A DNA stretch of 30,961 nucleotides from a virus. The stretch is from positions 1 to 30,961 of the IMG/VR virus record IMGVR_UViG_3300035071_000090; one strand, 5' to 3'. The position numbers were made by a program, and so were the translations under genes. Positions 2,340 through 24,984 of this stretch are shown one piece after another. The notes beneath the pieces are model-generated. The model had not been told where the DNA came from, ran no database searches, and saw nothing but the letters and a program-made list of their open reading frames with translations. The stretch's first letter is position 1. The number at the start of each line of letters is the position of its first letter.

Positions 2340-3782
2340 TTAGCGGGTGGCGAGCGCGACGAAGGGCGAGCGTGTGTTCGTGCCCTTGAACGGTGTCATC
2401 GGAGCCGTCCACATCGGCTTACCGTCAACGCGGTAGGTGATGCGGAACACCTGCTGATCGGTCAGGAACGCCACGTGCATGGATGTGGCTGCCTGAACGC
2501 CGCCCTTGTCGACCAGTGTATATTGCGACAGATCGGCGAGCAGAATGTCGCCGGCCGTGCCGAGCGTCGGAGAATATTCGGTCTCAATGACCGGCCGGCC
2601 GAACAGCGTCGCATAGGGCGCGGAAGATTGGCCTCCGGGCGGCATAAACGTGAGCTGGCCGCCGGTGCCGACCGCCTGGTTGAGCTGGAAGAGCTGTGGC
2701 AGCACATCCTGGCTGATCAGCCAGACCGAATTCTTGCGGCTGCGCACCCAGAGGCGCGACCACATATTGTCGATATTTTCCTTGACGATCGTCTGCGTCT
2801 TCTGCCCGGCCTGCGCGGCCTGGGTGACCAGCGCGGGGCTGTTGATGACGCCGAGCGGCATGCCCGAGCCCTTGCCCTCGTAAATCGCGTCCTCGGTCAT
2901 GAACATGACCTCTTCCGAGAAGGCCTGAGAGGCGATCGCGGTCAAGGCCACCGAGTCCTGGAGCAATTCGTCCGAGGTATACATGATCGACATCAGCTTA
3001 TGCAGGCTGAATTCGATCATCTTGAACTTCGGCTTCGTCGGGGTTGCGGCCGTTCCCTCATCCACCCAAAACGACTGAACGCCGCCCCAACGCGAACCGG
3101 TCAAGCGGCTCGTTTCGTCGACGCCCGGGATCTTGATCCCGTTGAATTTGTCGCCGATCGGAATCTTGTTCACAAGCCCAAGCAATTCGCCCATGTCGTG
3201 GGCGATCAGGAAGATCGCCGCGGCGAAATCCGTCTGCACAAGAAAGCCGCCGCCGGTCGGATCGACTTCGCCGGCGCCGGTCGGGGCGCGGACGAGGCGC
3301 GCATCCGTGTTGGAGCCGCGGCTTTCGTAATAGGTCTTAATCGCCTGCAATTGTTCGCCGAGCGAGCGAAAATGCTTGCCCTTGTTCAGGCGAATGCCAT
3401 TGGCGGCGCGCACCATCGACACGGCGCGCTCGAACTTGCTCGAAAAGGCCTGCGCTCTTGAGCTATACGCGAGCTCGCGCGTCGCGACGCCGCGCTGCGC
3501 GCCGCGCTCCAAAGCCAGGCGCTCGATCTCCGATGCGACCGGCGCGTCATCGTCATAGCCTTCGACGCCCTCCTGACCCTCCTCCTCGGCATGCTGACCG
3601 GCAGGGCGCGCCAGGGCGGCATTGCGCTCCTGAGCCTTCAGCGCGCGAGTGAGCTGGGCGTCGACGCCTTCGAGATCGGCTTCGATCTGCTTATAGACGG
3701 CTTCGTTTTCGATGGCTTCCTTGGCGCTGAGCGTCTTGATCGCCTTGGCGCGCTGCGCGCGCAGTTCCGCGATGAGAGACAT
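2340..3782 (-). CDS. HK97-type major capsid protein
   Basis: This 480-residue protein forms the icosahedral shell. Residues 1-110 are a charged, helical region (MSLIAELRAQRAKAIKTLSA and a following Glu-rich part) like the delta/scaffold domain removed by the prohead protease in HK97-type phages. From about residue 150 it shows the capsid fold: GGGFLVQTDFAAAIF at the start, a long P-domain helix region (LHKLMSIMYTSDELLQDS), EDAIYEGKGSGMPLGVIN, and a C-terminal part with FLTDQQVFRITYRVDGKP. The protease gene lies directly upstream in transcription order, as expected. The start at 3782 has AAGGTGA about six bases ahead. Confidence 0.95.
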   Translation of the reverse strand: MSLIAELRAQRAKAIKTLSAKEAIENEAVYKQIEADLEGVDAQLTRALKAQERNAALARPAGQHAEEEGQEGVEGYDDDAPVASEIERLALERGAQRGVATRELAYSSRAQAFSSKFERAVSMVRAANGIRLNKGKHFRSLGEQLQAIKTYYESRGSNTDARLVRAPTGAGEVDPTGGGFLVQTDFAAAIFLIAHDMGELLGLVNKIPIGDKFNGIKIPGVDETSRLTGSRWGGVQSFWVDEGTAATPTKPKFKMIEFSLHKLMSIMYTSDELLQDSVALTAIASQAFSEEVMFMTEDAIYEGKGSGMPLGVINSPALVTQAAQAGQKTQTIVKENIDNMWSRLWVRSRKNSVWLISQDVLPQLFQLNQAVGTGGQLTFMPPGGQSSAPYATLFGRPVIETEYSPTLGTAGDILLADLSQYTLVDKGGVQAATSMHVAFLTDQQVFRITYRVDGKPMWTAPMTPFKGTNTRSPFVALATR

Positions 3783-10308: not shown

Positions 10309-10683
10309 CTATCCCCCTTGTCGAAGGCGAGCAGATCTGGCCTCGATGGTCTTGCGGTTGTGGCAGCCGCCCCGCTTACCGTCCGCATGAGGGCGGCCGT
10401 TGCCGCCGGTGCGGGTGCAGTTGAGCTTCACGTTGCTTCGATCGAAAGGTTCGCCGCCGTCCTTGAGTTCCTCGACGTGATCTCCGATCAGGCGCACGGG
10501 GGAGCCGTCGTCTTCCATCGACTTGCCGCATAGCTCGCAGCGCCGGCCGCGTTCGGCGATGATCGAGGCGATGAGCTTGCGCCAACGCGGATCGAGATAG
10601 ATCGCGTCGGCTTGCTTCTTTGGCGGTGTCAGCTTTGTGAGGTTCGCAACGGCGACGCGAGGGCGCAAGGTTCGAAGCTTCAT
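10309..10683 (-). CDS. HNH endonuclease, packaging-associated
   Basis: This 124-residue protein has a clear HNH fold: a zinc-type Cys49-x2-Cys52 (RRCELCGK), the catalytic Asp68-His69 in LIGDHVEELKDGG, Asn84 in DRSNVKLNC with Cys89, and a final GGCHNRKT with Cys107-His108. In cos-type HK97-like phages an HNH protein encoded beside the terminase works with it in DNA cleavage (HK97 gp74 is the known case). The position here, right before TerS, makes that role likely. Its start overlaps the NusG-like gene stop by ATGA, so it is co-transcribed with it. Confidence 0.88.
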   Translation of the reverse strand: MKLRTLRPRVAVANLTKLTPPKKQADAIYLDPRWRKLIASIIAERGRRCELCGKSMEDDGSPVRLIGDHVEELKDGGEPFDRSNVKLNCTRTGGNGRPHADGKRGGCHNRKTIEARSARLRQGG

Positions 10684-11312
10684 CGGCGCACCGCCGCCAT
10701 AGCTTCGCTAAAGGGACGGCTTTCGCCGCTCACCTTGGAAACGTCGGAAGGCTTCGGGGGCCGTCGGCCCTGCTCCTGCGCTTCGACGTGGCCCACTTCG
10801 CAGATTATGGGGGTGGACCGCCCGAATAGGTTCAGGTCTATTCGCATCACGCCGCGGGAGTCAACGTCGGCGACGACGCCGGCGTGGCCCTGGAGCGGCC
10901 CGGCGACAAGCGCGACTTTCATTCCCTTTTTGATTTCAACGCCATTTGCCGAACGTCTGCCGGGACAAAAAGACATGTAGAATTCGATCAGGCCTTCAGG
11001 CAAAGCAGCCGGTGCGTCCGACCCGGCCATGGTCACGAAGCCGAAAACGCCACGCATATTCTTGACCGCCGAAACGACAAAACCATGCGTGATATCAGTC
11101 TCTTCGCAGCGCAGAAAAATGTAGCGGCCAAAGCGCGCGATCTTGGTGATTCGCCTCTTCGGCCCCATGCTCGGCGCGGCTTTGCGCACATTTCGGTTCC
11201 ATGAACGTCTCTCGTCGACTGGCCGCCAGGCCTTGAAACCCGCGGCGACCAAGCGCAGATAGGCGTCTTCATCGCGCCCTTCATAGGCTTCGACCACATA
11301 CCAGCGTTGCAT
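10680..11312 (-). CDS. NusG-family transcription elongation factor (NGN + KOW)
   Basis: The product has 210 residues from the ATG at 11312, chosen because NusG proteins begin with a short M-x-x-W-Y-V-V strand (MQRWYVVEAYEGRDEDAYLR). In-frame starts at 11324 (ATG) and 11354 (GTG) exist. The NGN domain covers roughly residues 1-115, with KIARFGRYIFLRCE and NMRGVFGFVTM matching family strands. The KOW part is IKKGMKVALVAGPLQGHAGVVADVD (about residues 130-155). A Pro/Arg tail ends it. Such a phage-borne paralogue could change pausing or termination on the long leftward operon. It lies between replication and packaging genes, where antitermination would matter. Confidence 0.85.
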   Translation of the reverse strand: MQRWYVVEAYEGRDEDAYLRLVAAGFKAWRPVDERRSWNRNVRKAAPSMGPKRRITKIARFGRYIFLRCEETDITHGFVVSAVKNMRGVFGFVTMAGSDAPAALPEGLIEFYMSFCPGRRSANGVEIKKGMKVALVAGPLQGHAGVVADVDSRGVMRIDLNLFGRSTPIICEVGHVEAQEQGRRPPKPSDVSKVSGESRPFSEAMAAVRR

Positions 11313-11357
11313 ATTCGCCCCCATGCGCAGGATCGGACTCGCACAAAACGCCACGCT

Positions 11358-12479
11358 TCACACGGTGCGGCGCGGAGGGTCGGCGGTCGATTCAGGGCGC
11401 GGTGAAACATCTGATTTGGCGAGCGCCGGCGGCCATTCGGTCGGACGCAGGATACCCATCCCGGTCGGAAAGCTGCGTAGATCGATCCGCTCGACGCCGT
11501 TCGCGAGGCGCTCATATCGCGCCCAGGCCGCGAATTGCGGCGTATGCTCGCGGATCACGACGCCACCATATTTGGCGCGCTGCAGCTCGTGCAGCTCCTG
11601 CTTGCGCCGTTCCGTCGCGTCGATCTTCGCGACGAACTCTTCCCAGCCGCGATTTGTCAGCCAATTTCCAGCGAATGCCTGACGGCGCTTTTTCTCGCGG
11701 CAGTCGCGCAGATAGGCCGGCGCGTGTTTCAGCGCGAGCGCCCGCTCGGGAGGCTTCAGTCGGCGGAACACGCCCTTAGCGACAATCGGGCTCTCGACCT
11801 CCTGCCAATTCCAAAGATCGTAGAATTTGGTCCACTCCGCCGCCTCTTCGCCGGGAGGAGGCGCTGAAACACTTTCGCCAAAATCTCTCTCTCGGTCGGC
11901 GCAGCCGATCGTTGGCTCAGGCTCAGGTTCGGGTGGAGAGAGAGAGTCTTTGACGGTTAACTTGGTTATTCTAGCCCTCTCACCAGTGGTAGGGTCCCCC
12001 TTCCACAGCTGTGGTAGGGTGACCCTCTCACAGCTGTGGTAGGGTGACCCTCTCAATTTGGAAGGGTCCCCACCCTCGTTTTGGGGTTCAGACGGCGCGC
12101 AATCGGGAGCCGCTGGCGACACATTTTCGCCGCCGGAAGCGGCCTCGGCCGAAGCTTCGCGCGGCGGCTTTCCGGTCCAGCCGAGCGAGCGGGCAAACTC
12201 GCGTGCGGCTTCGTCGCACAGCAGAATGATCCAGTCAGACTGCCGCCGCCCGCTTTCATGATAGCGCGCCGCCCGCGCGATGAGATCGATGTCCTCGAGC
12301 TCGGCAAGCCATCGCCGCACGCTTGAGGCGCTTTGTTCGGTTTCCTCGGCGAGCCTGGGAATCGAGGGATAGCAGTCTCCATTGACGCCGGCATAATTGG
12401 CGATGGTGAGCAGCAAGGCCTTGCCCGCCGGCGAGCCTGTCTTGCGCCCGAGCGCCCATGTCGTCGCCTGATAGCTCAT
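11358..12479 (-). CDS. Helix-turn-helix replication protein (lambda O-like position)
   Basis: This 373-residue protein has an N-terminal winged helix, residues 1-95: KTGSPAGKALLLTIANYAGV, DCYPSIPRLAEETEQSASSV and RRWLAELEDIDLIARA, the HTH_36-type fold found in phage and plasmid initiators. The middle (about 100-190) is low-complexity and Pro/Glu-rich. The C-terminal part is helical and basic, with a YLRDCREKKRRQAFAGNWLTNRGWEEF segment split over a conserved-looking W-x-x-F pattern. Iterons lie inside the coding sequence over residues about 142-166, as the lambda origin lies inside O. No helicase or loader domain is visible, so host helicase recruitment is assumed. Confidence 0.75.
   Translation of the reverse strand: MSYQATTWALGRKTGSPAGKALLLTIANYAGVNGDCYPSIPRLAEETEQSASSVRRWLAELEDIDLIARAARYHESGRRQSDWIILLCDEAAREFARSLGWTGKPPREASAEAASGGENVSPAAPDCAPSEPQNEGGDPSKLRGSPYHSCERVTLPQLWKGDPTTGERARITKLTVKDSLSPPEPEPEPTIGCADRERDFGESVSAPPPGEEAAEWTKFYDLWNWQEVESPIVAKGVFRRLKPPERALALKHAPAYLRDCREKKRRQAFAGNWLTNRGWEEFVAKIDATERRKQELHELQRAKYGGVVIREHTPQFAAWARYERLANGVERIDLRSFPTGMGILRPTEWPPALAKSDVSPRPESTADPPRRTV
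11981..12078. repeat. Four 23-25-bp iterons inside the O-like gene; candidate replication origin
   Basis: Two adjacent identical 25-bp units lie at 12004-12028 and 12029-12053. A degenerate unit precedes them (11981-12003) and another follows (12054-12078). Each perfect unit holds two small dyads: CACAGCTGTG and AGGGTGACCCT. Because 25 is not a multiple of three, each copy is read in a different frame by the gene, so the conservation acts on DNA and not on protein. This is what an initiator-binding array looks like. An AT-richer stretch (TTAACTTGGTTATTCTAG, 11957-11974) lies next to it and could be the unwinding site. Confidence 0.75.
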
Positions 12480-13051
12480 GCGGCGACCTTTGCTTTGCGC
12501 GAGTCGCCGCGCACATGATGCATGACCGCGGTGCGGTGACGGTCCGACATGAGGCCGATATCGACATAGGACAGCGAAAGCTCGCGCTTCGTGCGCGCGA
12601 AAATCGCCTTGCGCGCCGCGACGGCGAAGAGCGCGCGCGATGGCCCGCGAAACTGCGCGAGTGTGAGCCCGCGCGCGTCGAGCTCCGCCGAGACGATGTC
12701 ATAAAATTCCGGCGTGTAATAGATGCGCGCCAGGCGTTGTTCTCTCAGCCGCCGCGCGCGTGAGATTTCATCGGCGAGTGCGTCGATCAGCGGCAGTTTC
12801 GCCAAAATCTCAGGCGCGCCAGAAACGCGCGGAAGATCGCGTTCGCGCGCGCGCAGCGTCACCGCGATCGCCCCGCGCGGCGCGCCACAGCGCGTCGAGG
12901 CAAACACGAAGGAGCGGCGCGCGAGACTTGATCTCCGCGCCGCGGTGCGTTCCGGCGCGATCATGATCGCCGTCTCGATGCCAAAAACGCGCGCCGCAGC
13001 GAAGAGAAAATCTTCGGCGAGCGGACGCGTCTTCGCAATTTCAGGCTTCAT
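12476..13051 (-). CDS. DnaA domain IV-like DNA-binding protein
   Basis: The product has 191 residues from the ATG at 13051; the longer frame overlaps the upstream gene too far. Residues 128-183 match DnaA domain IV. The order is GLTLAQFRGPSRALFAVAAR, then KAIFARTKRELSLSYVDIGL, then MSDRHRTAVMHHVRG, where D-R-H-R-T-A-V-M-H corresponds to the DnaA signature R-D-H-T-T-V-x-H. The AAA+ ATPase of DnaA is absent. Residues 12-60 (FAAARVFGIETAIMIAPERT) look like a second, decayed copy of the same domain. It may bind DnaA boxes in phage or host DNA. The stop overlaps the O-like gene by ATGA, suggesting a shared replication role. Confidence 0.75.
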   Translation of the reverse strand: MKPEIAKTRPLAEDFLFAAARVFGIETAIMIAPERTAARRSSLARRSFVFASTRCGAPRGAIAVTLRARERDLPRVSGAPEILAKLPLIDALADEISRARRLREQRLARIYYTPEFYDIVSAELDARGLTLAQFRGPSRALFAVAARKAIFARTKRELSLSYVDIGLMSDRHRTAVMHHVRGDSRKAKVAA

Positions 13052-13445
13052 TGCTCGCGGCCCCTTCGAGCAAGCCCTTTTTGCGCAACCCGCAGCGGAT
13101 ATTGACGACGGTGTGTTCGGACAGACGAGATTTCGCGGCAATGTGCTTGCAAGAAAGGCCTTGCCGTGAAAGCAAGAGCACAGCGCGCTGATTGTCTGTC
13201 AGCGACCGTTCTGCAGCGCCCCCCCCTATGGATGACGCCGCATTTTCCGGCGGTGCTGAATCGTAGGTCTCACCTTCCGGCTGGGCGTCATCAGGTTGTT
13301 CGCCATAGGCGTTATATTCGACGGGCCAGAGCAGTGATGCGGCTTCGAACAGCTGCTCGGCGAAACGCGCGACCGCGGCGAAATCGCCGAATTCGCAGCG
13401 CGCCGAGGCGAGCTGTCGCAACTCAAAGTCAATTTCAACCTTCAT
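13041..13445 (-). CDS. Small HTH protein, LuxR/sigma-4-type DNA-binding end
   Basis: The protein has 134 residues. Residues 82-126 form a LuxR- or sigma-region-4-like helix-turn-helix: LTDNQRAVLLLSRQGLSCKH, IAAKSRLSEHTVVNIRCGLR, KKGLL. The N-terminal half is acidic and of unknown fold, and a Gly/Ala linker separates the two. No receiver or autoinducer domain is present. Start 13445 has GAGG eight bases upstream. The gene overlaps the DnaA-like gene by 11 bases. It is probably a phage transcription regulator, but its target is unknown. A short dyad (GAAACGT, 13495-13501; ACGTTTC, 13508-13514) just upstream could be its site or an RNA hairpin. Confidence 0.7.
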   Translation of the reverse strand: MKVEIDFELRQLASARCEFGDFAAVARFAEQLFEAASLLWPVEYNAYGEQPDDAQPEGETYDSAPPENAASSIGGGAAERSLTDNQRAVLLLSRQGLSCKHIAAKSRLSEHTVVNIRCGLRKKGLLEGAASNEA

Positions 13446-20856: not shown

Positions 20857-21594
20857 ATGCGCGTTAATATCTATGCCGAGGAAATGCCACAGCCGCCGCG
20901 GCTCGAGATCATCGAGAAGCCCATAGAGGATCAAGTCTTCACGGGCCTGCGCATCTATCTCGAATTGCCCGTGAGCTTCAAAGCCTACAGGGGCTTACAC
21001 GACGATAAATACGTCGTTCCCGTCGCTCCCGACGAACAAGGCGCCGTGCGCCAATTGCAAGGGCCCTTCCTTCACCGCCCTGGCGACGACGACAGTTCGG
21101 CCGTCACCTTTTGGGGCAAGCAGGATCTGCGCAGCGTGCTCGAACAGGCATTGCGCATGCTCGACGAGCATTATTGCGATCGCGGCGGCGAGAGCCAATG
21201 TATGTTCGTTCCCCGGCGTCTGTTCCTTGAACGCCAAACGCCGGCCGAAATGGCGATCCGCCGCGCCATCGATGCGGTCGAGGCCGCGGGCGCCGAGGCC
21301 GCGGGCGCCGACGCGAGGCTGACCGCCGCCGTCATGCTCTTGACCCAGGCGCGCGAGGGGGTCGCTGATTTTGTCGACGGCGTAAATCCCAGCTCTCAGC
21401 TCGGGGCCGTTATCAAGATGAGCGATCAACGGAGAGAGCACTTCGATCAGGCGATGCGCGAGATCAAGCAGCGCGCACCGAAGGCCTTCGATTTCGACCC
21501 GTGGGTTGCGCTCGGCGAGATCATGGAAATCCTTGACCGCATGGACCGCGAGACGGCGACTGCGCATGAGACGGCCGCGGAGAAAGCGCCGTGA
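20857..21594 (+). CDS. Conserved phage protein of unknown function
   Basis: The protein has 245 residues, starting MRVNIYAEEMPQPPRLEIIE with AAGGA nine bases upstream. Residues 1-115 are beta-rich: VFTGLRIYLELPVSFKAYRG, then DDSSAVTFWGKQDLRSVLEQ. The MRVNIYAEE start is one I associate with small early phage proteins. The C-terminal half is helical, with a tandem EAAGA/EAAGA repeat coming from a 15-base direct repeat near 21280-21310. The end is acidic (EKAP). No enzymatic motif is visible. The stop overlaps the next gene through GTGA. Confidence 0.7.
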   Translation: MRVNIYAEEMPQPPRLEIIEKPIEDQVFTGLRIYLELPVSFKAYRGLHDDKYVVPVAPDEQGAVRQLQGPFLHRPGDDDSSAVTFWGKQDLRSVLEQALRMLDEHYCDRGGESQCMFVPRRLFLERQTPAEMAIRRAIDAVEAAGAEAAGADARLTAAVMLLTQAREGVADFVDGVNPSSQLGAVIKMSDQRREHFDQAMREIKQRAPKAFDFDPWVALGEIMEILDRMDRETATAHETAAEKAP

Positions 21595-22644: not shown

Positions 22645-24984
22645 ATGGAAACCCTACGCCTCAATGAAATCGCCGGCCTGTCCAAATTCAACGCGCGCAA
22701 GACGCCCCCAAACCCCGAGGACATAGACGAGCTCGCCGCGAGCATCGCCGCCAAGGGCATGCAAAAGCCGCTGGTCATTCGCACCGAGGACGGCTCGCTT
22801 AAGGTGTTAGACGGCGGCCGCCGCTATGTCGCGCTGAACCTGCTGTGGGAACGCGGGAAGCTGGAGGAATATCACGCCATTCCGATAACGCTCTTTGAGG
22901 GCGACGACGAAGCCGCGGCGGAATTCGCGCTCATCGATTTCCTGCATCGCAAGGATTTGCATCCGATCGACGAATTCGAGCGCTTTGGCGATCTTGTCGA
23001 GCGCTTCGCTCTCACGCCCGAGGCGATCGCCGCCAAGCTCGGCAAGCCGCTGCGCTATGTGCGCGATCGCCTGCGCTTAAACCGCCTCGCGCCCGCCGTG
23101 CGCGAGGCCTGGCGCGCGCGCGAGCTCACTGCCGAACAGGCGCAGGCCTTTTCGATCAATGCGGATCACGCGCGCCAGGAAGAGTTTTTAAAGCAAGTCG
23201 CAGAGCAGCCTTGGCACTATAGGCGCGCCGAGGATATCCGCGCGCGCCTCGCAGGCGACGCCCTGCGCGCGACGCAGCCGCTCGCCGTCTTCGTCGGCAA
23301 GACGGATTACGCCGCCGCCGGCGGCGCGCTCGAGGAGCAGCTGTTCTCCGATGACGATTGGTTTTTGGACGGCGCGCTCGTAAAGCGCCTCGCCGCCGAA
23401 AGGCTCGACGCGCTCGGCGCAAAGCTCATGGACGCAGAGGGCTGGGGCTGGTTCGCCCATGAGCTGCAACCCGATTGGAAATCGCGCGACGCCGTTTCAG
23501 GGAAGGCCTTCGATTATACCGATGCGGAACGCGACCGGCTCGAGGAGATCGAGACCGAACAGGAAGACGAAGAAATTGCGCCCGAGACGTCGCGCAGGCT
23601 CGATGAAGAGGCCGAGGCGATCGAGACGCGCGGCCTGCTGCGCGCGCTCTCCAAGGCGCAGCGCAAAACGCTCGGCGTGGTCATCTCGCTCGACCATGAG
23701 GGCCGGCTCTTCATCGATCGCGCAATCAAGCGCAAAACCCCATCGGAGCCGTCGCAAGCGCCGAGCCGCGATGAAGAGGAGAAGGGCAACCGCAAGTCGC
23801 GCACGCGCGCCAATGGCGCCGAGGGCGAAGCGGCGCAAGAGCCGGTCGCGCTCGGCAATGCGCAAAAGGCCGCGCTCGACGCGGCGGCGACGGCCGCCCT
23901 GAGCGATTTGCTCGCGCGCAATCTGAGCTTCGCGCTCATCGTCGCCGTCGCCGCGCTTGGCCGGTGTTATGCCTCGCCAGGAGGTGACCCGGTTCGCCTG
24001 ACGGGCAATCAGGTGCGGTTTGGCTTCAAGCCGAAGTCCGAACTTCTCTGCGCCGTTCGCGGTGAGGAGGAGGCGGGGGATTTCGCGACAGCGCTCCTCG
24101 CCTGCACTAGGGCGCATATCGACGGCGCCGAAACCGTCACGACCGCCTTGGCCGAGCTCATGGGCGCCATGGTCGATACGAGCGGCGCCTCGAATTTCGA
24201 TTTGACGCGCACGCTTCTCGCCACAGCCTCGCGCCTCGGCGATATCGAAACCGGCCTCAAGCGCCATCTCGATTACGAGGCCTATTTCAAGGCCGCGACG
24301 AAGGACGTGGCGATCGAGGCCGTGCGCGAGCTTGCGGGAGACGCCGGCGCGGCGCATGTCGCAAAGCTCAAAAAGCCGGAGGCCGCGCTCTATGCCGCCG
24401 AGCTCGCCAAAGAGAAATGGCTCCCCAGGCCGCTGCGCGTCGAAGAGCCCTCCGAAGACGCCGAAACCGAGGCGGAAACCGCGCCAGAGAAGGCGCCCGC
24501 GCGCAGGCCCAAGCCGGACGCGCGCAGCACGGCGCAGGCAATGGCCGATGCCATCGAAGCCGACGAAGAGAAGGGCGACGAACGCGACGCCGCGCTGAAG
24601 GCGCTCGGCGGCGACTATCCCTTCCTCGAACGATTCTTGCGCGCGAGCGGCCGAAGCATCACGCCGCGCCAGCTCTTTATCGCCTATCGCGACGCCGCCA
24701 AAGAAGAAGGCGTGAAACCGTGCCCACAGGGCGAATTCGAAGCGGCGATGCGCAAGCTCGGCTTCGAAAAGCAGCTCGTCAATGGTCGCAACATCTACCA
24801 GGGCGTCGACCTCGCGATGCTCGCCGAGGCGCTCGAGGCCGCCGAAGCAGGCAAGAGCGGCGCACAAGAGAGCGAAGCGTCAGAGGCCGTCGCAGCCGCC
24901 GGCAAACCAAAGCGCAAAGCCGCGCCGGCGAAGAGCAAGAGCAGCAGCGCGCGTGACGCCAAGAAAAAAGGAGCGCGGAAATGA
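22645..24984 (+). CDS. Large ParB/Spo0J-family protein
   Basis: The 779-residue protein carries a ParB N-terminal domain (residues 1-105): NEIAGLSKFNARKTPPNPED, then ELAASIAAKGMQKPLVIRTE, then KVLDGGRRYVALNLLWERGK, where the D-G-G-R-R-Y box matches the CTP/nucleotide site G-E-R-R in ParB. A KorB-type HTH follows (about 118-150: ALTPEAIAAKLGKPLRYVRD). Residues 280-420 are acidic and basic low-complexity. A third domain (about 420-600) and a small winged-helix-like part (YPFLERFLRASGRSITPRQL, near 655) follow, then a Lys/Ala tail. It is far longer than chromosomal ParB (about 300). Plasmid-type relatives do occur. It might organise phage DNA or regulate expression. Confidence 0.88.
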   Translation: METLRLNEIAGLSKFNARKTPPNPEDIDELAASIAAKGMQKPLVIRTEDGSLKVLDGGRRYVALNLLWERGKLEEYHAIPITLFEGDDEAAAEFALIDFLHRKDLHPIDEFERFGDLVERFALTPEAIAAKLGKPLRYVRDRLRLNRLAPAVREAWRARELTAEQAQAFSINADHARQEEFLKQVAEQPWHYRRAEDIRARLAGDALRATQPLAVFVGKTDYAAAGGALEEQLFSDDDWFLDGALVKRLAAERLDALGAKLMDAEGWGWFAHELQPDWKSRDAVSGKAFDYTDAERDRLEEIETEQEDEEIAPETSRRLDEEAEAIETRGLLRALSKAQRKTLGVVISLDHEGRLFIDRAIKRKTPSEPSQAPSRDEEEKGNRKSRTRANGAEGEAAQEPVALGNAQKAALDAAATAALSDLLARNLSFALIVAVAALGRCYASPGGDPVRLTGNQVRFGFKPKSELLCAVRGEEEAGDFATALLACTRAHIDGAETVTTALAELMGAMVDTSGASNFDLTRTLLATASRLGDIETGLKRHLDYEAYFKAATKDVAIEAVRELAGDAGAAHVAKLKKPEAALYAAELAKEKWLPRPLRVEEPSEDAETEAETAPEKAPARRPKPDARSTAQAMADAIEADEEKGDERDAALKALGGDYPFLERFLRASGRSITPRQLFIAYRDAAKEEGVKPCPQGEFEAAMRKLGFEKQLVNGRNIYQGVDLAMLAEALEAAEAGKSGAQESEASEAVAAAGKPKRKAAPAKSKSSSARDAKKKGARK

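Follow-up and report, generated by a model that had tools for sequence, protein, structure and literature searches.

A probable lambda-type replication origin inside the O-like initiator gene of an uncultivated temperate phage

The virus record IMGVR_UViG_3300035071_000090, analysed here over its whole length of 30,961 bases (the window), carries on its minus strand a gene for an O-like replication initiator, and within this gene lies an array of repeated dyads followed by a stretch of weakly paired DNA. The array is very probably the part of a lambda-type origin of replication to which the initiator binds, and this origin would lie embedded in the gene for that initiator. In phage lambda, dimers of the O protein bind four 19-bp iterons, form the O-some and open an AT-rich region with the contribution of negative supercoiling (PMC3985674; PMC5043065; PMC7466680), and the origin is found in the middle of gene O (PMC7466680). 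The elements by which an origin of this type is recognized, namely an O-like winged-helix initiator, dyad iterons inside the gene and an AT-rich element on their 3′ side, are all present in the window. Their positions are given below, with the iterons numbered from the 5′ end of the array in the sense of the gene.

11358–12479, minus strand: gene for the O-like replication initiator, 373 amino acids (Pfam HTH_36 (PF13730), 1.4e-11; PHROG families)
Initiator domains (AlphaFold2): winged-helix N-terminal domain, amino acids 1–98; disordered linker, amino acids 108–204; helical C-terminal domain, amino acids 211–326
12047–12067: iteron 1, degenerate (ACCCT..CAATTTG..AGGGT), with a degenerate repeat copy at 12059–12071
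12022–12045: iteron 2 (ACCCT-CT-CACAGCTGTG-GT-AGGGT)
11997–12020: iteron 3 (CCCCT-TC-CACAGCTGTG-GT-AGGGT)
11974–11995: iteron 4, degenerate (GCCCT-CT-CACCAGTGGT-AGGGT), with a repeat copy at 11977–12001
11935–11974: candidate DNA unwinding element, the least stable 40 bp of the O gene by nearest-neighbour stability

The iteron array and its initiator

Two exact 25-bp copies of CACAGCTGTGGTAGGGTGACCCTCT, at 12004–12028 and 12029–12053, make up the centre of the array, with one degenerate copy on each side. The families reported by the repeat finder cover 11977–12071 with spacings of 25, 25 and 22 bp. The units are best described as ACCCT..dyad..AGGGT, and four of them lie at 11974–12067, their start positions being separated by 23, 25 and 25 bp. 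A first-pass annotation of this DNA had reported the perfect tandem pair and its degenerate neighbours, and this layout was confirmed. It had also placed two named dyads in each unit; both are exact in the two perfect units only, and the outer units have changed letters with the symmetry preserved (AGGGTCCCCCT is paired with CACCAGTGGT, and CAATTTG with AGGGTCCCCACCCT). By unit, the central dyads read CAATTTG, CACAGCTGTG (twice) and CACCAGTGGT, and their outer arms and symmetry are mostly preserved. Neither AGGGTSACCCT nor CACAGCTGTG, each searched with 0 mismatches, occurs elsewhere in the window, and the exact 17-base pattern of the unit had no match in viral contigs.

The array sits approximately 410–510 bp into the O gene. 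Since neither of its periods, 25 and 22, is divisible by three, the copies are translated in different frames, as had been noted for the 25-bp unit in the first-pass annotation. The repeats were compared with synonymous-codon shuffles of the gene, which leave the encoded protein unchanged. The repeat score was 35.0 versus a null mean of about 9 and a null maximum of 16 in 300 shuffles, and none of 500 shuffles reached the array score (p=0.002, z=24.8), a sign of repetition beyond what the protein sequence imposes. When the same test was applied to the other genes of the window, 22 of 23 gave p>0.05. The remaining one (20857–21594, plus strand; codon-shuffle p=0.01) contains an in-frame 15-bp tandem repeat, CGAGGCCGCGGGCGC, in 2.2 copies at 21279–21311.

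Judged by its profile matches, the gene at 11358–12479 belongs to the O-like initiator family with an N-terminal winged helix. In addition to HTH_36, it matched the PHROG replication initiation families phrog_1032 (2.7e-19), phrog_270 (2.4e-18) and the O-like phrog_391 (9.1e-13), in agreement with its earlier description as an O-like helix-turn-helix replication gene. In the AlphaFold2 model, the predicted local distance difference test score (pLDDT) is 92–98 in the N-terminal domain and below 50 for most of amino acids 108–204, and the C-terminal domain is of lower confidence. The second-best match in a viral fold search was a predicted lambdoid O protein, chiefly via the winged helix. A PDB fold search with the O-like protein gave generic winged-helix matches only, none with E<=0.001, and sequence searches against solved structures gave no match. 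The stretch of the gene that encodes the predicted disordered linker contains both the iteron array and the AT-rich element; an origin placed there would be DNA free to evolve as binding sites under little protein constraint.

The 40 bp of least stability start 11 bp from the array, on its 3′ side, and are among the most unstable 1.4% of the window at that length. As the phage is G+C-rich (61%), the candidate unwinding element is only relatively A+T-rich, unlike that of lambda. We envisage that O, probably as dimers, would bind the four dyad iterons via its N-terminal winged helix and assemble into an O-some-like complex in which the DNA is bent. This complex, together with negative supercoiling, would melt the AT-rich DNA at 11935–11974, and the C-terminal domain and host factors would then bring the host helicase. 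Observed here are repeats that exceed codon shuffles and recur with the initiator gene, an AT-rich element adjoining them and the domain layout of the protein; that O binds, and does so as dimers, that the element melts, that helicase is loaded and that the origin fires is inferred.

The closest known systems are lambda ori in gene O (NC_001416, 38686–39585) and the lambdoid origins with four or six iterons. As a positive control, lambda gave an offset of 20, an array at codons 117–129 and a stability minimum 46 bp beyond the array; its annotated iterons start at 39034, 39054, 39078 and 39101, i.e., 20, 24 and 23 bp apart. Lambda and the window have in common four dyad iterons 20–25 bp apart in the middle of the gene, past the N-terminal DNA-binding domain, and an AT-rich element on the 3′ side. 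Thus, the likeness to lambda ori inside O that the first-pass annotation had proposed extends to helix-scale spacing of about two turns, to a location between the winged-helix and C-terminal domains, and to the 3′ position of the least stable 40 bp. The two systems differ in unit sequence and half-sites, the similarity of the proteins lies chiefly in the winged-helix domain, and the window has a NusG-like gene where lambda has the helicase loader P. Iteron plasmid origins (P1, F and RK2) also have repeated initiator sites adjoining an AT-rich unwinding element (PMC5043065). Compared to these, the units of the window are dyads within the initiator gene, as in lambda. The candidate origin of the window would add one more member to the lambda-type origins and falls far short of founding a new kind, and the wider pattern across O-like genes is more interesting than this single origin.

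Arrays in other O-like genes

Approximately 40 O-like genes, some of them from distant relatives, were read in phages of alpha- and gammaproteobacteria and of a cyanobacterium, plus lambda. They were gathered via annotated phages, terminase relatives and viral contigs matched by two-sequence alignment. Single-protein scans of viral contigs with the O or the NusG-like protein returned no relatives, and a nine-sequence O alignment was too divergent for scanning. Most of the genes read carry their own, differing repeats of about 22–25 bp right after the winged-helix domain; the related phages have repeats at the same place and of different sequence.

By codon shuffle, an array with p<=0.05 was found in 24 of 29 non-redundant O-like genes including lambda, nearly all of these arrays lying within codons ~89–165 and having offsets of 20–25 bp or near multiples. 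Among control open reading frames of at least 200 amino acids from related loci, 4 of 174 reached p<=1/101. The least stable 40 bp starts between −20 and +50 bp from the 3′ end of the array in 18 of the 24 genes versus 1.96 expected (binomial ~2e-15), and the corresponding placement on the 5′ side was seen in only 2 of the 24. In a second set, drawn from viral contigs, arrays were present in most of the 17 genes tested, with a commonest period of 22–23 bp. Units are common to groups with similar winged-helix domains (e.g., ACCATGCCGCA, CCACCGGCAAATGG and ACGGGGTGCAC), and the recognition helix is correlated with the repeat k-mers (Mantel p=0.001).

In Pseudanabaena phage Pam5, Labrenzia phage vB_LagS-V1, Rhodobacter phage RcOceanus and Burkholderia phage Bcep176, for example (loci L005, L004, L009 and L016, respectively), repeats within the gene come after the winged-helix domain, a stability minimum lies just 3′ of them, and unit sequence and copy number are particular to each phage. 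An origin at these O-like genes is unmentioned in the record annotations examined. The closest full-length protein found, with 27% identity over 75%, is that of Bradyrhizobium phage ppBeUSDA76-1 (L003). This locus shares with the window the gene order of O, NusG-like and HNH genes, as well as GACCCT..CAAnTTGnGAGGGTCA, which matches iteron 1 and its neighbour.

Several observations weigh against the reading of the window array as part of a lambda-type origin. L003, the locus just described, has inverted AGGGTC/GACCCT half-site pairs at 3360–3450 and no significant direct-repeat array; L008 and L012 are also without a significant array, and L011 and L048 are borderline, just above 0.05. Relatives that keep the gene without the repeats, which the first-pass annotation had regarded as speaking against an origin, thus exist and are few, and the half-sites retained by L003 are related to those of the window. 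In a partial Mantel test, r was a modest 0.24 for the recognition helix when the rest of the domain was controlled for, and 0.37 for the rest when the helix was; with correlations as strong outside the helix as in it, shared descent and direct recognition are not told apart. Single dyads in the arrays are mostly no stronger than dyads elsewhere in the same genes and were therefore excluded as independent evidence. The compared genes share ancestry and hence are not fully independent. Furthermore, no helicase loader (P or DnaC) was found adjoining the O-like gene, with only part of the open reading frames of the window searched. An adjacent loader is usual in lambdoid phages and was not counted as defining, and loading by the host or by the C-terminal domain is possible.

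Neighbouring genes and other explanations of the array

Terminase, portal and major head proteins are encoded on the minus strand of the record, and its plus strand has genes for a repressor, a ParB-like protein and an integrase, a content that identifies it as a temperate phage or prophage. The two genes next to the initiator gene are as follows.

10680–11354, minus strand: NusG-like gene downstream of the O-like gene (PF02357, 1.8e-9; phrog_6386, transcription antiterminator, 2.4e-17)
12476–13141, minus strand: upstream neighbour with a weak DnaA domain IV-like C-terminus (PF08299, E=2.2e-4; 21.6 bits, under the curated cut-off of 31.5)

In the window, the NusG-like gene is followed by an HNH endonuclease gene. 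A NusG-like gene directly after the O-like gene and before HNH and terminase genes is also present in L003 (4194–4871) and L004 (4248–4835), a position that resembles that of late antiterminators.

Operators, too, typically consist of palindromic repeats to which a winged-helix protein binds, and the array lies within the early gene cluster, so that O might use it as an autoregulatory site to limit transcription of the early operon, with the true origin elsewhere. This is very unlikely as the sole function of the array, which is situated hundreds of base pairs inside the gene, far from the position of a promoter. An operator does not need the one-sided pairing with the least stable DNA that is seen in gene after gene, and the identical arrangement in lambda is an origin. 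The roles of operator and origin could coexist. A somewhat smaller chance is given to the small upstream neighbour, which, rather than O, might bind the units and start replication. Its gene overlaps the start of the O gene, it has the weak DnaA_C match, and the two perfect units contain TGTGG, which is like the core of a DnaA box. However, the match falls under the Pfam cut-off, no DnaA box (TTWTNCACA, up to 1 mismatch) is present within 11358–12479, and the sequence of the iterons follows the winged-helix domain of O. In the compared loci, where no gene related to this neighbour was detected, repeats accompany O-like genes. The part that the first-pass annotation had allowed this protein at the array was thus not supported, and the neighbour is not needed for the best explanation.

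The ParB-like gene (22645–24984) and the terminase genes about 2 kb away raise the question of whether the array is a partition site or a packaging site. Such a function is highly improbable, since the exact dyads of the unit are found nowhere else in the window, and arrays go with the O gene in several phage groups regardless of the neighbouring genes, with a sequence that shifts with the O domain. In favour of a neutral tandem duplication in the linker are the predicted disorder of this stretch and the identity of the central pair of units, which is what a recent duplication would leave. Nevertheless, we consider such a source of the repeats barely conceivable. The outer units preserve dyad symmetry despite their changed letters, and repeats are found at the same place in most O-like genes, whereas control genes rarely have any.

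Motifs beside the arrays and implications for phage origins

The DNA next to the arrays was compared in 29 O-like genes clustered at 55% identity, over the 70 bp after the array. On the coding strand, GAACC was found 30 times and GGTTC 0 times; the expectations, taken from the remaining parts of the genes, were 3.0 and 2.6, respectively. Repeated 6-mers numbered 164; codon shuffles had a mean of 46 and reached at most 79. AACC occurred 46 times, above the codon-shuffle maximum of 35, with all three frames represented. Within the candidate unwinding element of the window there are two AACC (GGTT on the plus strand), at 11955–11958 and 11964–11967, which are 9 bp apart and not in the Glu-Pro (E-P) frame. 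As 26 of the 30 GAACC copies are in the E-P frame and AACC nevertheless exceeds the shuffles, a mixed cause in protein and DNA is possible. An EPxxEPxxEP peptide as the sole cause of GAACC was considered and rejected, because AACC is above the codon shuffles and present in other frames.

Alternating GA or CT tracts of at least 7 nt are found in this neighbourhood in 7 genes and in 0 of 138 control windows, and the window phage has both.

11936–11946, minus strand: alternating CT tract (coding strand), on the far side of the AT-rich element
11884–11893, minus strand: alternating GA tract (coding strand), inverted partner of the CT tract

These two tracts form an inverted pair with 18-nt arms that are 83% complementary and 44 nt apart. 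Alternating CG tracts are likewise enriched after the arrays. Overall, the unwinding elements show no purine excess (p=0.98); their A-fraction and AT skew are raised.

It is possible, and we propose it only tentatively, that O-type origins share a DNA code beyond iterons and A+T-richness, consisting of strand-specific (A)GAACC-like repeats every 9–12 bp on the coding strand, partly with GA/CT and CG tracts, across bacterial groups despite unrelated iterons. The AACC and tract motifs were counted in the data in which they had first been noticed, with windows picked afterwards and ancestry controlled only roughly. The AT-rich region of lambda also holds short imperfect repeats. A strand asymmetry of that region has already been described (PMC5043065), so the (G)AACC pattern may extend known facts rather than be new. 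If true, the code could mark the strand captured by the initiator or the helicase, and could map phage origins by sequence alone.

For the phage studied here, the analysis narrows the likely origin of an uncultivated temperate phage to approximately 130 bp. The lambda arrangement, with the origin inside the initiator gene, recurs in the O-like genes of distant phages, and this recurrence could allow origins to be predicted by sequence in many phage genomes. With their fast-changing iterons next to a steadier unwinding element, these genes provide a natural series for how initiators and their sites change together.
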